In this document: positions 7,324 through 23,515 of the stretch, in pieces | How the letters are laid out: every line of letters starts with the position of its first letter | Numbering within the stretch: the first letter of the stretch is position 1 | From: Clostridiales bacterium | Lineage (GTDB): Bacteria; Bacillota; Clostridia; Lachnospirales; Lachnospiraceae | Length of the DNA stretch: 64,000 nt | Assembly (NCBI GenBank): GCA_021199255.1 | Contig: JAJQIK010000011.1 | Span: 19,096-83,095, forward strand | Direction: 5' to 3' | The notes under the pieces: generated by a model | Databases searched by the model: none | What the model was told of the DNA's origin: nothing | What the model saw: only the letters and a program-made list of their open reading frames with translations | Translations under genes and position numbers: made by a program

Positions 7324-8661
7324 CTACGGAGAATATATTACTTCCATAGTTGATACCGAGCCATCCGAGAATTGAGTGACTACAGTTATGATCCCACTAC
7401 CCTCTTGATTTATTTCAAAGGTATCATTCTCGGCAAAATCTTGTACCATATATTGCTCACCCTCATCAGGCGTGACGACAATTCTATATTGTAAGCCCTC
7501 TCGTGGTGTTGATGCTATATGATAGCGAAACACACCCGTATATGATTCCGTATAGATCCCCCATGTCTGTTCAGGCATATTGTCTACTTTTTCATCATAT
7601 GAACTGTAAAATAAATCATCGCCCTCATACTTCCCTTCATATACGAGTTCGCAAAGAAAATTTGTATACATTTCTACTCCTTTACAATTTAGATGCCCCG
7701 CATCACGAAAGAACTCTGTTTTTTCTATCGGCAAATATTCCTCTTTAATCAAATTAAAATCGTAAAAATTAATATCATATTCGTTTGCTATCTCCACGAT
7801 TTTTTCTCGATAATTATCATATGTATCTATAGAAAGCATCTGCAATTCATATATCGGAGAAACAATTAAGGTTATTTCAAGATTTTCCTTCTGGCAAAGC
7901 TCTACAATTTTTCTCAAATATTCCTCTGCGTCTTCTGTCAAAAATATTTCATCTGATCTTCTTTCAGCCCCATATACTAGATTCGTAATTTCCCTATCAG
8001 TATAATAATAACCCTTATCTTGAAAGATTACTACTCCCCCTTCATCATCTTCTTTGTAATTATATGTTAAAAAATCATTTGATTTCTTTTCATTATGCCG
8101 ACTGATCATATAACTATAATCAAATAAATATCTTCTATATCTGATAAAAGGAAGTACCGCATCAATTAAGTGCTCTTTTCCATTTTCATCCCAGATTGCC
8201 TGTATTTTATTCAGCGAAAGCTTCGCATAATCTGTAGTTCTCCACATATTTTTAATACTACCATCCAATGAATAATTGCCCAAAATACCTGTCGACGGCA
8301 CATAGTAAAGTTCTAAAAATACGCGTTTTAAATCATTCTCTTTCAAAGCTTCTCTCAATAAATAATATGACGATATAATTTGCTGCTTTGGTGTCGATAA
8401 ATTGAAGTTACTTTCACCCGTAAACTCATCCATTATATTAGGATTCACATCACAATATATATGAGAAGAACCCAGAAAAAGATTGTCGATATTTTCTGAT
8501 TTATAAAAATTATGCCATAAAATTCTGGACCATTGATCGTCTTGATAATAATTATACATAAATAGCTTATTTATGAGCGCTAACACCACTATCAGCAACA
8601 AAATAAAGGCTATTCCTCTTTTCACTTTAGAACTGGAAGTAAATAAATTCCGAAGCATCAT
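7324..8661 (-). CDS. SGNH-like O-acetylation partner protein of the MBOAT acyltransferase
   Basis: About 445 residues. One N-terminal membrane anchor (GIAFILLLIVVLALI) is followed by an extracytoplasmic SGNH-like fold: the block FLGSSHIYCDVNP carries the nucleophile Ser, and RDAGHLNCKG near residue 325 carries the Asp-x-x-His pair. This is the layout of AlgJ/AlgX/DltD-type partners that pass acyl groups from an MBOAT enzyme to a glycan. A small beta domain forms the C-terminus. GGAG lies 6 bases before the ATG at 8661, inside the 3' end of the MBOAT gene, so the two are coupled by overlap. Expression should follow the invertible promoter upstream of the MBOAT gene. Confidence 0.8.
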   Translation of the reverse strand: MMLRNLFTSSSKVKRGIAFILLLIVVLALINKLFMYNYYQDDQWSRILWHNFYKSENIDNLFLGSSHIYCDVNPNIMDEFTGESNFNLSTPKQQIISSYYLLREALKENDLKRVFLELYYVPSTGILGNYSLDGSIKNMWRTTDYAKLSLNKIQAIWDENGKEHLIDAVLPFIRYRRYLFDYSYMISRHNEKKSNDFLTYNYKEDDEGGVVIFQDKGYYYTDREITNLVYGAERRSDEIFLTEDAEEYLRKIVELCQKENLEITLIVSPIYELQMLSIDTYDNYREKIVEIANEYDINFYDFNLIKEEYLPIEKTEFFRDAGHLNCKGVEMYTNFLCELVYEGKYEGDDLFYSSYDEKVDNMPEQTWGIYTESYTGVFRYHIASTPREGLQYRIVVTPDEGEQYMVQDFAENDTFEINQEGSGIITVVTQFSDGSVSTMEVIYSP

Positions 8662-10135
8662 ACATTTCTCCATAACATCCAAACATGATTATTATTGCTA
8701 TCAGACAGCCAACTGCCACAGCCTGAATCACAATATTTTGGGAAAAGAATGATTCGATTATATTCTTTCCCTTATATTTGTAATAATCAATAATAAACAA
8801 TACAATAATTGCCGCCATCATTACTCTAAAATACTGGAGATCCACGCCAAGGCTAAAGATGGATTCGTCAAAGAAAATCCACCAATTTCGGCTCGACAAA
8901 ACGCTCTTTATCATGTGCAACGCCTCTCTTGCACCACTTGCTCTAAAGAACAGCCACGTTGAACATACCAGTGAAAATGTGATCAAACGGCTTAATATCC
9001 TATTAGTAATTGTATCCTTAGCCTTAAATTCTTTGATGCCAAGTCTTGTTATAATCAATTGGAGCAACGTATCTCTAACATCAGCTATTACTTGATATAA
9101 TCCATTTAGAAATCCCCATGTAACATAGCTTATTCCAGCTCCATGCCATAGCCCGCTTAGAAGAAAAGTTATAATAAGATTAAAATTTTTCCTGATATGT
9201 CCCTTACGATTTCCCCCTAACGGAATATATACATAATCCCGAAACCATCCAGACAATGAAATATGCCATCTTCTCCAAAATTCTTTCACACTTTTTGAAT
9301 AATACGGAGCATTGAAATTATCAACAAGCGTAATTCCCATTGTCAACGCTGCGCCGCGTGCTATTGTTGAATATCCGTAAAAGTCACAGTATATTTGAAT
9401 TGCAAAAAAAGCTGTCGCAATCACAATATAAAATCCAGGATATGTCTCCCAATCCCCATATACTGTGTTAACAATAATTGCAACCCTGTCCGCTATTACC
9501 ATTTTCAAAAACAGACCATATATTATGAGTACAAATCCACTGATAATATTTTCCAGCTTAAATTTTTGAAGAACATTTAGCTGTGCAAGCAAATTCTTTG
9601 AACGTTCTATTGGACCAGCAACCAATTGCGGAAAAAACGATACGAAAAGAGCATATCTAAGAAAATTTTTTTCTGCGTATATTTCTGCGCGATACACATC
9701 AATCGTATAACCTAATGCCTGAAAAATATAAAAAGATATACCAACTGGCAGCAATATATTTACCTCAGGCGTACTCACGCTTGCCCCGAATCTTCTGGCA
9801 ACAGCATAAATCACTCTGACAATAAGACCTGAATATTTAAAATATCCAAGAATTCCTAAGTTTATAATTAAGCTTACCGATAACCAAAATTTTTTATGGA
9901 CAATTCTTTTTCTTTCATCCCATTCCTTATTTTTGATAATCTCCAATATTCTTCCACATATATATGTAACCAATGTAGAGGCAAATAGCAGAACTGCGTA
10001 AGCAGGGTTCCAACCCATGTAAAAATAATATGAACAAGCTAATAGCCATATATATCGCACCCTTTTGGGTATAATGTAATATACAATTAGTGCGATTGGA
10101 AAAAACAATAAAAAATCAACCGAATTAAATAACAT
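8627..10135 (-). CDS. MBOAT-family membrane O-acyltransferase (AlgI/DltB-like)
   Basis: 502 residues with about ten transmembrane helices. It opens with the typical FFPIALIVYYIIPKRVRYIWLLACSYYFYMGW segment and contains the PQLVAGPIER, EFWRRWHISLSGWFRDYVYIPLGGNR and SGLWHGAG blocks of AlgI-type enzymes; the invariant catalytic His is near residue 331. Such proteins move acetyl (or other acyl) groups across the membrane to surface polysaccharide or teichoic acid. The ATG has GGAG about 10 bases upstream. Only 23 bases separate the start from the left inverted repeat of a putative invertible promoter. In the orientation sequenced, no good promoter points at this gene. The glycan acceptor is unknown. 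Confidence 0.93.
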   Translation of the reverse strand: MLFNSVDFLLFFPIALIVYYIIPKRVRYIWLLACSYYFYMGWNPAYAVLLFASTLVTYICGRILEIIKNKEWDERKRIVHKKFWLSVSLIINLGILGYFKYSGLIVRVIYAVARRFGASVSTPEVNILLPVGISFYIFQALGYTIDVYRAEIYAEKNFLRYALFVSFFPQLVAGPIERSKNLLAQLNVLQKFKLENIISGFVLIIYGLFLKMVIADRVAIIVNTVYGDWETYPGFYIVIATAFFAIQIYCDFYGYSTIARGAALTMGITLVDNFNAPYYSKSVKEFWRRWHISLSGWFRDYVYIPLGGNRKGHIRKNFNLIITFLLSGLWHGAGISYVTWGFLNGLYQVIADVRDTLLQLIITRLGIKEFKAKDTITNRILSRLITFSLVCSTWLFFRASGAREALHMIKSVLSSRNWWIFFDESIFSLGVDLQYFRVMMAAIIVLFIIDYYKYKGKNIIESFFSQNIVIQAVAVGCLIAIIIMFGCYGEMYDASEFIYFQF

Positions 10136-10158
10136 TGTATCATTTCTCCGATTATATT

Positions 10159-10173
10159 AAAGTATACATTTTC
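10159..10173 (+). repeat. Left inverted repeat (IR-L) of the putative invertible promoter
   Basis: AAAGTATACATTTTC, an exact reverse complement of 10283-10297. It contains the small palindrome GTATAC. It lies directly between the acyltransferase ribosome site and the promoter segment. Beyond it on the inner side, GAAAT is also found in the right arm after a 6-base offset. Confidence 0.85.
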
Positions 10174-10221
10174 GAAATGGCTTTTAAGCTTGCTGGGAAA
10201 TTGTTTGAAAATATAAAAATG

Positions 10222-10249
10222 TTGAAAAATCAAAGATTTTTGTTATAAT
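10222..10249 (+). promoter_or_regulatory. Strong sigma-70-type promoter inside the invertible segment, pointing away from the acyltransferase
   Basis: TTGAAA at 10222-10227, a 16-base spacer, then TATAAT at 10244-10249 preceded by TG one base upstream (extended -10, TGnTATAAT). The spacer holds a 7-bp inverted repeat (AAAAATC / GATTTTT with a 3-base loop, 10225-10241) that could be a regulator site. Transcription would start near 10256 and run through the right repeat into the antisense strand of the recombinase gene. No coding frame follows in that direction. Confidence 0.75.
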
Positions 10250-10282
10250 AGCTATCGTAGTTCTGTTCCATATTTCAAAATT

Positions 10283-10297
10283 GAAAATGTATACTTT
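10283..10297 (-). repeat. Right inverted repeat (IR-R) of the putative invertible promoter
   Basis: GAAAATGTATACTTT, the exact reverse complement of 10159-10173. It lies 23 bases beyond the stop codon end of the recombinase gene, so the recombinase borders its own candidate substrate. Confidence 0.85.
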
Positions 10298-10320: not shown

Positions 10321-10920
10321 TTAATCGGCTTTTTCAAATTTTCTCGCTTTTCCATAAAAAGTTTGCGGCAGCATATCACACTGCTTTGCCGCTTCTTCCA
10401 TACTTATTTTCCCACTTCTCCAATCCTTATGTGCCTTGTGGAAATTGTCAGGTATGGGCAGTGGCGGTCTGCCAAACTTCACGCCCTTTGCTTTTGCGGC
10501 AGCAATCCCTTCGGCTTGTCTTTGACGTATGTTAGCACGCTCATTCTCCGCCACGTAGCTCAGAAGTGCAAGCACAATATCGTCTATGAATGTCCCCAAC
10601 AGATTTTTTTCCCGCCTTGTGTCAAGTATCGGCATATCAATCACGACTATATCTGCGCCCTTTTCTTTCGTAATAATGCGCCATTGCTCGTTTAGGTCGG
10701 CATAGTTGCGCCCCAACCTGTCAATGGATTTGACAAAGAGAACCGTATCCCTGCCAAGCTGCTGCAGGAGCTTCTTGTACTGCGGTCGCTCAAAATCCTT
10801 ACCCGACTGTTTGTCCATGTAAATATTCTGTTCGGGCACTCCCATTTCAAGCAGCGCTATCCTCTGCCTGTCCTCATTCTGCTCCTTTGTCGATACTCTC
10901 ATGTATCCGTATACTTTCAT
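10321..10920 (-). CDS. Serine site-specific recombinase (resolvase/invertase family)
   Basis: 199 residues with the full small-serine-recombinase plan. The catalytic domain contains GYMRVSTKEQNEDRQ (Ser10 nucleophile region), a DKQSGKDFERP segment and KSIDRLGRNYADL with the active-site Arg pair. The long E helix (LLGTFIDDIVLALLSYVAENERANIRQRQAEG) follows, then a C-terminal HTH (ISMEEAAKQCDMLPQTFYGKARKF). Length matches Hin/Gin/Mpi-type invertases and Tn3 resolvases. AAAGGA lies 7 bases before the start. No transposase or inverted-terminal element accompanies it. The adjacent inverted repeat around a promoter suggests it is a dedicated DNA invertase. Confidence 0.92.
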   Translation of the reverse strand: MKVYGYMRVSTKEQNEDRQRIALLEMGVPEQNIYMDKQSGKDFERPQYKKLLQQLGRDTVLFVKSIDRLGRNYADLNEQWRIITKEKGADIVVIDMPILDTRREKNLLGTFIDDIVLALLSYVAENERANIRQRQAEGIAAAKAKGVKFGRPPLPIPDNFHKAHKDWRSGKISMEEAAKQCDMLPQTFYGKARKFEKAD

Positions 10921-11477: not shown

Positions 11478-12866
11478 CTATTTTACCACAAAAGCCTCTA
11501 TATGCAGCTCCTCAGTCTCGCTCAGATTGGTGACGAAGAAATAATATCTGCCCTTAATCTCAATGGAAAAGGTATGAAAAATCACCCCTTCGCCCTCCAC
11601 ATAATGCATAATCTGATCCGGGTCCTTGAGACCGGTCTGGTAAGTCATATCGTCCGGATCGGCACTAACTGTAATGGAAACCTCATTCCCCACGCTCTCG
11701 GTGAAACCGGAGCTCATAATGGTTCTGTCTGCAGGCACATTCCAGTCCAGCGTAAAGGTAGAACTGCAAGTCTCGATACTGTCGTCTCCCATCATGATTA
11801 CCTTATTCGGATCCAGATCATAGGCTCTGCACAGCTCCTCCAGCGCCTGCTGATCCTCGCTCAGCGCCGCCGCTTCCGCTTCCTTTTCGTTTATATTCTC
11901 CACAGTTTCTATATAGGCGTCCGACAGTTCTTCGCCTGCGGCCAGCGCGGTCATGCTGCTTCCCAGCAGGAAACAGGACGCCAATGCCATGGCCATACCT
12001 TTCTTCATGCCGCCGCACTTACGATACTCACTCATATACCTTACTCTCCTCTCATAATTGGACGGGCTGTCCACTAACGCGAACAACTGATACCGCTCCC
12101 TTTTGCCTTCCGTTAACAGCAATTGAAAAATAACGCGGAAATATTCTCCCGTGCTAAAGGCTTCCGCCCCTTGCTCACACGCCCTCCTGTCACAGCACTC
12201 TTCGCAGATCAAATCCATCTGCTTTAACAGAATATGCGCCGCCGGATTAAACACATGAATCAGCACCACCGCAAAGCTCCAATACTTAAGGCGCAGATCG
12301 CCTTCCAGATAATGACATAATTCATGGTATAAAATCACATCGATTTCCTTCTCCGTATATCGGTCGAGGGGCAGAATCACCGCCGGGCCATGCCAGTAGG
12401 TAATGCAGGGAATATCCACCGAGTCATTGCGGTATAACGACACCTTGCCCGCAATGCCAAGCCTGGCACAGATTTCCCGGAAGCGATGCGCTATTCTCTC
12501 GTCCTCTTCGGGGATATTACCTCTGCATACCGCCATCCAGCGGCCACGTCTGTATAAATGGTATCCCAACAGGGCAAGGCACAGTATCAGCCAGAGCAGC
12601 CCCAATGCCGAAAACGCCCTGTTGGTAAAGGGCGTATTGTAAAACAGATTGACGTTACTCCCCACATCCAATGCGGCACCCATACAAAAAGCCATATAAA
12701 CAAAGGGTATCAGATAGGCGTACCATGTGGCGACCACCATGAACCTGAGGAAGCTCGTGTCATGTTTCATCCATTTTGTCCTGAACAACAAGCCGATCAG
12801 GAAAAACAGCGTTTCCGTAATATCTGTCAGCAATAACGCGATAAACAGGTTACTCATCCAATCCAT
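11478..12866 (-). CDS. BlaR1/MecR1-type M56 membrane metallopeptidase with a novel extracytoplasmic tail
   Basis: 462 residues. Several N-terminal helices are followed by the cytoplasmic zinc peptidase core HELCH (181-185) and a downstream DLICEECCDRRA segment supplying the third ligand. A further helix (about 285-305, AMALASCFLLGSSMTALAA) then leads outside. In classical BlaR1 the outer domain is a penicillin-binding fold. Here it is only about 155 residues, acidic and beta-rich, with no SxxK or KTG motif, so the signal is probably not a beta-lactam. It overlaps the blaI-like gene by 17 bases. Likely role: cleave or inactivate that repressor on a cell-surface signal. Confidence 0.88.
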   Translation of the reverse strand: MDWMSNLFIALLLTDITETLFFLIGLLFRTKWMKHDTSFLRFMVVATWYAYLIPFVYMAFCMGAALDVGSNVNLFYNTPFTNRAFSALGLLWLILCLALLGYHLYRRGRWMAVCRGNIPEEDERIAHRFREICARLGIAGKVSLYRNDSVDIPCITYWHGPAVILPLDRYTEKEIDVILYHELCHYLEGDLRLKYWSFAVVLIHVFNPAAHILLKQMDLICEECCDRRACEQGAEAFSTGEYFRVIFQLLLTEGKRERYQLFALVDSPSNYERRVRYMSEYRKCGGMKKGMAMALASCFLLGSSMTALAAGEELSDAYIETVENINEKEAEAAALSEDQQALEELCRAYDLDPNKVIMMGDDSIETCSSTFTLDWNVPADRTIMSSGFTESVGNEVSITVSADPDDMTYQTGLKDPDQIMHYVEGEGVIFHTFSIEIKGRYYFFVTNLSETEELHIEAFVVK

Positions 12867-13230
12867 TAATTAATTGGTTAATCCTTTCGATTTCATCTTT
12901 TCGTAAAGGTCTCTCGTTGGTTAACGCGCATAAAAACTCATCCGCGTTGTCATGATTCCAAAAGCTTACATAATCGTTCGTCAGTTGTCCCTTGTATTCC
13001 TCTAACGGAACCAGAATCTGATAGAAAAATACACGTCCCTGACGGTAATGTCTCAAATATTCCTTTCTTACAAGACGGGCCAGAAAGGTCGACACAGTCT
13101 GCGGCTTCCACTCTTTATGGTACTTATCGTTGACTCTTGCCATAATCTCCATCAGACTCAGCTCTTCCTCAGCGTCCCATACTACCTTCATAACTAACTG
13201 TTCGCAATCCGTTAATTTTTCATGCGTCAT
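12850..13230 (-). CDS. BlaI/MecI/CopY-family winged-helix repressor
   Basis: 126 residues with the family's winged helix (LTDCEQLVMKVVWDAEEELSLMEIMARVN...TVSTFLARLVRKEYLRHYRQGRVFFY) and a C-terminal dimerisation helix pair. It is the first gene of a two-gene unit with the M56 peptidase, the standard arrangement for an inducible repressor and its protease. GGGAGG precedes the ATG by 6 bases. A near-match to the BlaI box lies about 24 bases upstream (13254-13263), suggesting autoregulation. The regulated function is not obvious from neighbours. Confidence 0.92.
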   Translation of the reverse strand: MTHEKLTDCEQLVMKVVWDAEEELSLMEIMARVNDKYHKEWKPQTVSTFLARLVRKEYLRHYRQGRVFFYQILVPLEEYKGQLTNDYVSFWNHDNADEFLCALTNERPLRKDEIERINQLINGLDE

Positions 13231-23235: not shown

Positions 23236-23297
23236 AAATCCACTTCCAGAGGATTGTGAAAAATCAGCACATCAGTGTGATTTTCATACTATTCTTA

Positions 23298-23515
23298 TTG
23301 CAGACAGGTAATTACGAAGCTTATTCATAGCGCCATATTAATTATGCGAATTGTATCAACATAAGCAGCCCCTTTGGAAACGTCGGTACTTGGCGAGGTG
23401 TTTTCGAGCCTAGTACCGCTACGTCGGAAACGGAGCGAAAGCGCGTCTGCGTTGTTGATACAATTTGCACAATTCACAGCCAGAAACAAGTTTCGCAATT
23501 ACCTGTCTTCTGCAA
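23298..23515. repeat. Long imperfect inverted repeat (foldback) in a gene-free stretch
   Basis: The 64-base left arm (23298-23361) and 63-base right arm (23453-23515) are imperfect reverse complements. The best inner part, 23345-23361 against 23453-23469, matches at 16 of 17 bases, and the outer ACAGGTAATT block is shared exactly. The 91-base middle has its own stem (GGTACTTGGC / GCCTAGTACC). It lies in the 621-base gap between the chemotaxis receptor and the ABC permease; no gene is seen in that gap on either strand. It could be a structured RNA or a small repeat element. Confidence 0.6.

Follow-up and report, generated by a model that had tools for sequence, protein, structure and literature searches.

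Organisation of the locus

The window, by which we mean the whole 64-kb stretch of DNA analysed, carries a short segment bounded by inverted repeats that lies between a recombinase gene and a pair of genes for putative acylation enzymes. Read from right to left on the minus strand, the order is recombinase, 139-bp segment, MBOAT and partner, and the features are as follows:

7324..8682, minus strand: SGNH/DltD-like partner, 452 aa, overlapping the end of the MBOAT gene (Pfam DltD, PF04914, at 19 bits, short of the cut-off of 22.7)
8627..10135, minus strand: MBOAT O-acyltransferase, 502 aa, first gene of the putatively controlled operon (Pfam PF03062, 6.8e-30)
10146..10149, minus strand: GGAG motif resembling a ribosome site, ahead of the MBOAT ATG (by eye)
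10159..10297, no strand: very probable invertible segment, 139 bp including its arms (repeat, chance test and layout common to relatives)
10159..10173, plus strand: left arm, AAAGTATACATTTTC, putative recombination site beside the acyltransferase operon (perfect repeat; core GT[AG]TAC in 40 of 46 relatives' repeats)
10222..10249, plus strand: promoter TTGAAA-16-TATAAT with an extended -10 (TG at 10241-10242), aimed at the recombinase gene, that is, OFF (promoter scoring; chance test)
10283..10297, minus strand: right arm, reverse complement of the left arm, putative recombination site beside the recombinase (perfect repeat)
10321..10920, minus strand: small serine recombinase, 199 aa, likely the invertase (Pfam Resolvase, 4.3e-30)

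The first gene of the operon belongs to the MBOAT family, its Pfam score being 104.9 bits against a cut-off of 27, and it is distant from DltB, for which the curated model gave 144.7 bits against a cut-off of 375. In the partner protein residues G71, S73, D327 and H330 are invariant in all nine aligned rows and make up a GxS block and a DxxH dyad, which we take to be an SGNH/DltD-like motif. A profile search of solved structures for the fold of the partner returned one match, at chance level, and a single-sequence structure model had a mean pLDDT of 42 and was unusable. Homologues of the partner (E up to 1e-3) were found in 29 of the 31 MBOAT loci searched, the misses being L163 and L050. The family of the window's partner, with a member at every one of the genus's 29 other MBOAT loci, is better established than the partners of L163 and L050. 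At two loci (L144 and L145) the stretch matching the partner gene by tblastn holds a stop codon, and these may be broken copies or matches that run past the end of the gene.

The recombinase has a Resolvase N-terminal domain and Ser10, the catalytic residue of small serine recombinases, and is therefore assigned to that class; its best relative of solved structure is Sin (4.5e-23), with Ser10 aligned. The preliminary description had placed a serine recombinase gene to the right of the segment, and it is indeed found there; to this we add that the gene lies on the minus strand and hence reads towards the segment, its end being 23 bp from the right arm. Just upstream of the recombinase (11478-13230) lies a pair of genes for a BlaR1-type M56 peptidase and a BlaI/CopY-type repressor, neither of which reaches a curated resistance model. 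Two paralogues of the recombinase occur in the same genome (L006 on contig C85 and L007 on contig C54, with 64 and 63% identity), and no inverted repeat with a score of at least 12 was found within 1.5 kb on either side of them; it is possible that they are lost switches or enzymes that use another site.

The segment and its promoter

The two 15-bp arms are perfect reverse complements of each other and are 109 bp apart. No other 15-bp pair in the 64-kb window has a spacer between 60 and 250, and none arose in 40 dinucleotide shuffles of the window. Within the 3.08-Mb genome the exact 15-mer occurs at these two places only, with one further place that differs by one mismatch. Of the 25 promoter-like sites between 7000 and 13500, none scored higher than the promoter inside the segment (11 out of 12). 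When the segment was shuffled 1000 times this score was never reached, and among 912 tiles taken from the window two reached it. A chance origin of the repeat and the promoter is thereby excluded. The segment thus has the make-up of an inverton, with inverted repeats around a promoter that in one orientation is aimed at the neighbouring gene.

In the orientation seen here, the -10 ends 48 nt short of the segment end, within the range of 42-55 nt found in relatives (see below). Computed for the flipped segment, the -10 would occupy 10207-10212 of the minus strand, with 71 nt from its end to the MBOAT ATG. Between the left arm and this ATG (10135) there are 23 bases, which include the GGAG motif, and because only this much remains, an ordinary fixed promoter hardly fits ahead of MBOAT. 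The analysis bears out the preliminary description, in which the repeat was given correctly to the base, the enclosed right-pointing promoter with extended -10 and the left-reading acyltransferase operon 23 bases to the left were both recognised, and the position of the flipped -10 was calculated correctly. No relative's segment could be aligned with that of the window over at least 45 bp, and the OFF call for the window's segment is therefore based on the promoter.

The layout is conserved among relatives of the recombinase

We collected the best 80 of 334 recombinase relatives from one scan of genome contigs, together with the window's copy and the two paralogues (83 loci in all), and tested the 77 that remained once six with less than 150 bp behind the recombinase had been dropped. 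An inverted repeat with a score of at least 13 was present just behind the recombinase in 46 of these 77 loci, compared with none of 218 control stretches (0 of 73 upstream, two of which reach a score of 12, 0 of 68 far and 0 of 77 shuffled). The first arm starts 10-50 bp behind the recombinase match in 42 of the 46 repeat loci, the core GT[AG]TAC is found in 40 of them, and the median segment is 144 bp long. One locus with this layout, L036, is from a cultured commensal, Extibacter muris DSM 28560. Both paralogues are among the 31 of 77 loci that have no repeat of this score, some of which retain a recognisable, diverged core.

Within the genus, 66 of 77 genomes contain a match to the recombinase, many of them distant, and a repeat with a score of at least 13 was found in 22 of the 29 recombinase loci of the genus examined, some of which are records already in the 77-locus set. 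Among the 29 other MBOAT loci of the genus (one of which, L145, has little upstream sequence), the only upstream repeat of this score is at L142, where it is T-rich and has no core, and it follows that the repeat goes with the recombinase and not with MBOAT genes at large. Close relatives of the recombinase also occur in records titled Bacteroidales (L027), Phascolarctobacterium (L043) and Akkermansia (L071), which are likely to be mis-binned contigs or the result of recent transfer. A phage origin was considered and rejected: eight relatives occur in viral_contigs, one of which (L170) has a repeat with a score of at least 13, with the core absent there; at another viral-contig locus (L167) there is almost no sequence behind the gene.

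In a tree of 41 recombinases, which left out L064 and rows with a repeated protein, the window's copy falls in a starred set of ten that contains no other MBOAT-linked row and whose other members with an identified downstream gene have different cargo. A single origin for each of the MBOAT-linked (three rows) and the Acyltransferase_3-linked (three rows) recombinases is possible.

Inversion and promoter orientation in relatives

Inversion is seen directly when relatives' loci are compared. Between L035 on the one hand and L037, L039 and L040 on the other, the flanks are identical on both the recombinase side (623/623) and the cargo side (600/600), and the inner bases are identical (94/94) only after one of the two segments is flipped. 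The flipped segment of L037, L039 and L040 is also present, with a shorter flank, in L038, and the five loci come from five different records. Assembly k-mers are usually longer than 16 bp, and since the arms of this group, at 16 bp, are shorter than that, mis-assembly is an unlikely source of the inversion. More diverged flipped pairs are L032/L046, L080/L097, L082/L084 and L025/L027; the Acyltransferase_3 gene carried by L032 has a homologue in L046. These are products of inversion, and we infer that the adjacent recombinase is the enzyme that made them.

After removal of four duplicates from the 46 segments, promoters were called in 42 distinct segments, 15 of which gave no clear call. Twenty-one of the 27 clear calls point away from the cargo (OFF) and six towards it (ON), an excess with a two-sided binomial p of 0.006 under an assumption of row independence that does not hold. 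In 25 of the 27 (all 21 OFF calls and four of the six ON calls) the distance from the end of the -10 to that of the segment is 42-55 nt; the depth is odd in the other two ON calls, L027 and L047, which may be wrong.

Cargo behind the probable switch

The genes downstream of the segment were surveyed with 36 proteins, one per kind as judged by eye, taken from 51 loci with a repeat score of at least 11. For ten of the 36, no Pfam family matched at E up to 0.001. Pfam families assigned to the remaining cargo include flagellin (L031, L052, L078), Acyltransferase_3 (L032, L075), MBOAT (L050), glycosyltransferase 2 (L055), BspA-type repeats (L024, L051), S-layer homology (L079), VWA/Big_2 (L053), methyltransferases of the EcoRI (L025), Eco57I (L092) and MmeI (L081) types, a sigma factor (L064), a chemotaxis receptor (L102), an AMP-binding enzyme (L060), SPFH (L093) and radical SAM (L103). 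Cargo of this variety is typical of phase variation.

Two loci share the order of the window, with a recombinase, a segment between arms, an MBOAT gene and a further gene: L163, from the same genus, with 18-bp arms and a 176-bp segment, and L050, from a record titled uncultured Clostridia, with 16-bp arms. The promoters of both call OFF (scores of 11 versus 6.3 in L050 and 12 versus 10 in L163). Their partner genes look SGNH-like from motifs seen by eye, and the proteins had no homology to the window's partner at E up to 1e-3 and matched no Pfam family above its cut-off.

Flagellin genes were found behind the same kind of repeat at L031, L052 and L078, as above, and, by eye, at L106, L107 and L110. 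None of these six segments contains a clear sigma-70 promoter. Sigma-28 promoters were tried in their place and rejected, as the best scores in the six loci (7.5-9) were no better than those in other segments. DNA methyltransferase genes lie behind the switch not only in the three loci identified by Pfam (L025, L081, L092) but also, from similarity judged by eye, in L026, L027, L105 and L097, and their methylation could possibly be turned on and off. Eight genomes of the genus carry genes that by eye resemble glycosyltransferase 2 as the cargo of the switch (L117, L118, L121, L123-L125, L127 and L128).

A probable phase-variable promoter and the alternatives to it

The repeat, the promoter, the gene order, the conservation of the layout and, in relatives, both orientations and clean inversion are observations. 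The conserved layout, the clean inversion in relatives and the same gene order in L163 and L050 make a working phase-variable promoter with its own invertase the most likely explanation of the locus. The reading given in the preliminary description, an invertible promoter with its own invertase caught in the OFF orientation, gains support from this layout and from the two orientations and clean inversion among relatives, and we are highly confident that the 139-bp segment is such a promoter for the MBOAT/SGNH-like pair and is flipped by the adjacent serine recombinase. The recombinase would act on the two GTATAC-centred sites and rejoin the segment flipped. In the present orientation the promoter would fire rightwards, antisense to the recombinase gene, leaving the MBOAT/SGNH-like pair OFF, and after inversion transcription would run leftwards and reach the MBOAT ATG after a leader of some 65 nt (ON). 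For the window's own copy we infer that it inverts, that its recombinase does this and that the flip sets expression. The population would then be mixed for acylation of an extracytoplasmic polymer, the target being judged by family and presumably a surface glycan. Several observations count against this explanation: the single orientation seen at this locus, the 31 of 77 relatives that have no repeat of score 13 or more (both paralogues included), the two ON calls with an odd -10 depth, the promoter-like sites inside the MBOAT gene described below and a minus-strand TATAAT, noticed by eye at 10151-10156 just beyond the left arm, which has no proper -35.

The segment might flip while additional transcripts of the pair arise, either as read-through from the recombinase promoter or from sites inside the MBOAT gene, so that the flip only tunes the level of expression. 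From the start of the recombinase gene to that of MBOAT the minus strand has no terminator-like site, and such sites are few at the recombinase end of relatives' loci (3 of 42, against a shuffle mean of 0.45). Moreover, a promoter-like site inside the MBOAT gene (9346-9317, minus strand) also scores 11/12, and this site and another at 8784-8757 may give the partner gene promoters of its own. Both read-through and such sites might soften the OFF state, above all for the second gene. The invertible promoter is nonetheless the strongest nearby with an extended -10, which the site at 9346-9317 does not have, only 23 bp are left for a fixed promoter, and read-through RNA could fold with its arms paired and the ribosome site partly covered (z -2.66). 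On these grounds we regard such additional transcription as unlikely. No comparable pairing in read-through RNA is apparent by eye for the flanks of L035.

It is quite improbable that the segment is a relic, in the sense of a former inverton now locked OFF in the species with its recombinase inactive or acting elsewhere. The locus is seen in one orientation only, in a single genome, and the two paralogues of the recombinase have no repeat; decay would, however, be expected to break at least one component, whereas both arms match perfectly, the promoter departs little from the consensus and the recombinase gene has a full-length frame with Ser10 in place. Least credible is that the repeat serves only as a protein-binding site or an RNA hairpin and that no flipping takes place. 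Its arms can pair in RNA and GTATAC is itself palindromic, yet this would not account for the clean inversion between identical flanks of L035 and of L037, L039 and L040, nor for the tie of the repeat to the recombinase, the single repeat at the 29 other MBOAT loci of the genus being the one at L142 that has no core.

Possible antisense transcription into the invertase gene

A phase-variable promoter that converges, when OFF, on the gene of its own invertase could repress that gene. We tentatively suggest, as a possibility that we hold with considerable doubt, that the layout is a portable Clostridia cassette in which the OFF promoter represses its own invertase by antisense transcription and the ON orientation frees it, giving unequal flip rates, and which has been recruited repeatedly to acylation, flagellin and DNA-methyltransferase genes. 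The excess of OFF orientations (21 of 27 clear calls) fits such a self-holding OFF state, and on the plus strand of the window, from the segment promoter to 11431, no terminator-like site turned up. For relatives, the number of loci out of 42 with a terminator-like site was compared with the mean of 20 mononucleotide shuffles, and in the antisense direction into the recombinase it was 13, against a shuffle mean of 7.8. This speaks mildly against full-length antisense RNA in some relatives, and since terminator-like sites are somewhat frequent in this direction, the self-holding OFF state is put forward as a hypothesis. Terminators were also considered as the switching device and rejected, with sites in 2 of 42 loci from the segment towards the cargo (shuffle mean 0.85), in 4 of 42 from the segment towards the recombinase (1.45) and, at the recombinase end, in the three noted above.

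Comparison with known systems

A promoter flipped by a neighbouring invertase is of a well-known kind. In Bacteroides fragilis the serine recombinase Mpi inverts the promoters of genes for surface polysaccharides. It serves many scattered sites, whereas in the window's system each recombinase adjoins one segment, and the window's recombinase falls far short of the curated Mpi model (NF009949; 49.4 bits against a cut-off of 272). Hin and Gin invert DNA, and they and Sin resemble the window's recombinase in having, in solved structures, a catalytic domain with Ser10. Gut invertons were reportedly described by Jiang et al. in 2019, in tables that may list related ones.

Unlike the window's recombinase gene, which lies outside the segment, the gene for Hin is described in PMC5903667 as lying within its own invertible segment; Hin also uses a Fis enhancer, according to PMC3798978. 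PMC5903667 also covers RecV of C. difficile (cwpV, flagellar switch), which carries out site-specific inversion ahead of surface genes; RecV is a tyrosine recombinase encoded elsewhere in the genome, in contrast to the adjacent serine recombinase of the window. The gut invertons treated in PMC11892184 are like the window's in that a promoter lies between short inverted repeats near surface and invertase genes, Clostridia included, but within Clostridia they are linked most strongly (group 139) to tyrosine recombinases; the word "serine" is absent from the main text, and MBOAT, GTATAC and GTGTAC are absent from the text. In Akkermansia an inverton is located at the capsule locus cps1, which contains an acyltransferase gene; it differs from the window's in switching the whole capsule locus, and "recombinase" does not appear in the main text of that article (PMC13343947). 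In PMC12324116, O-acetylation influences hsdS inversions, which is the reverse of the relation proposed for the window.

A search of openly licensed papers found nothing on a Clostridia recombinase-repeat cassette or on promoter inversion ahead of an MBOAT pair, in agreement with the earlier remark that no inverton driving such a pair with its own neighbouring invertase was known in this group. Within these papers, the Clostridia-wide layout and the MBOAT cargo appear to be undescribed.

Acylation of wall or surface polymers changes sensitivity to lysozyme, antimicrobial peptides, phages and immune recognition in other systems, and with a dedicated switch a gut commensal would be mixed for acylation. 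The layout pairs each invertase with its own site, and the constancy of recombinase and promoter in front of changing cargo would allow phase-variable genes to be predicted from sequence in little-studied Lachnospiraceae and Oscillospiraceae.

Elsewhere in the window, positions 23295-23515 contain a palindromic element, about 200 bp in length, whose ends are formed by long and imperfect inverted repeats. It recurs at four further places in the genome at E <1e-41 (79-87% identity), with shorter pieces elsewhere, and by its sequence looks like a miniature transposable element.
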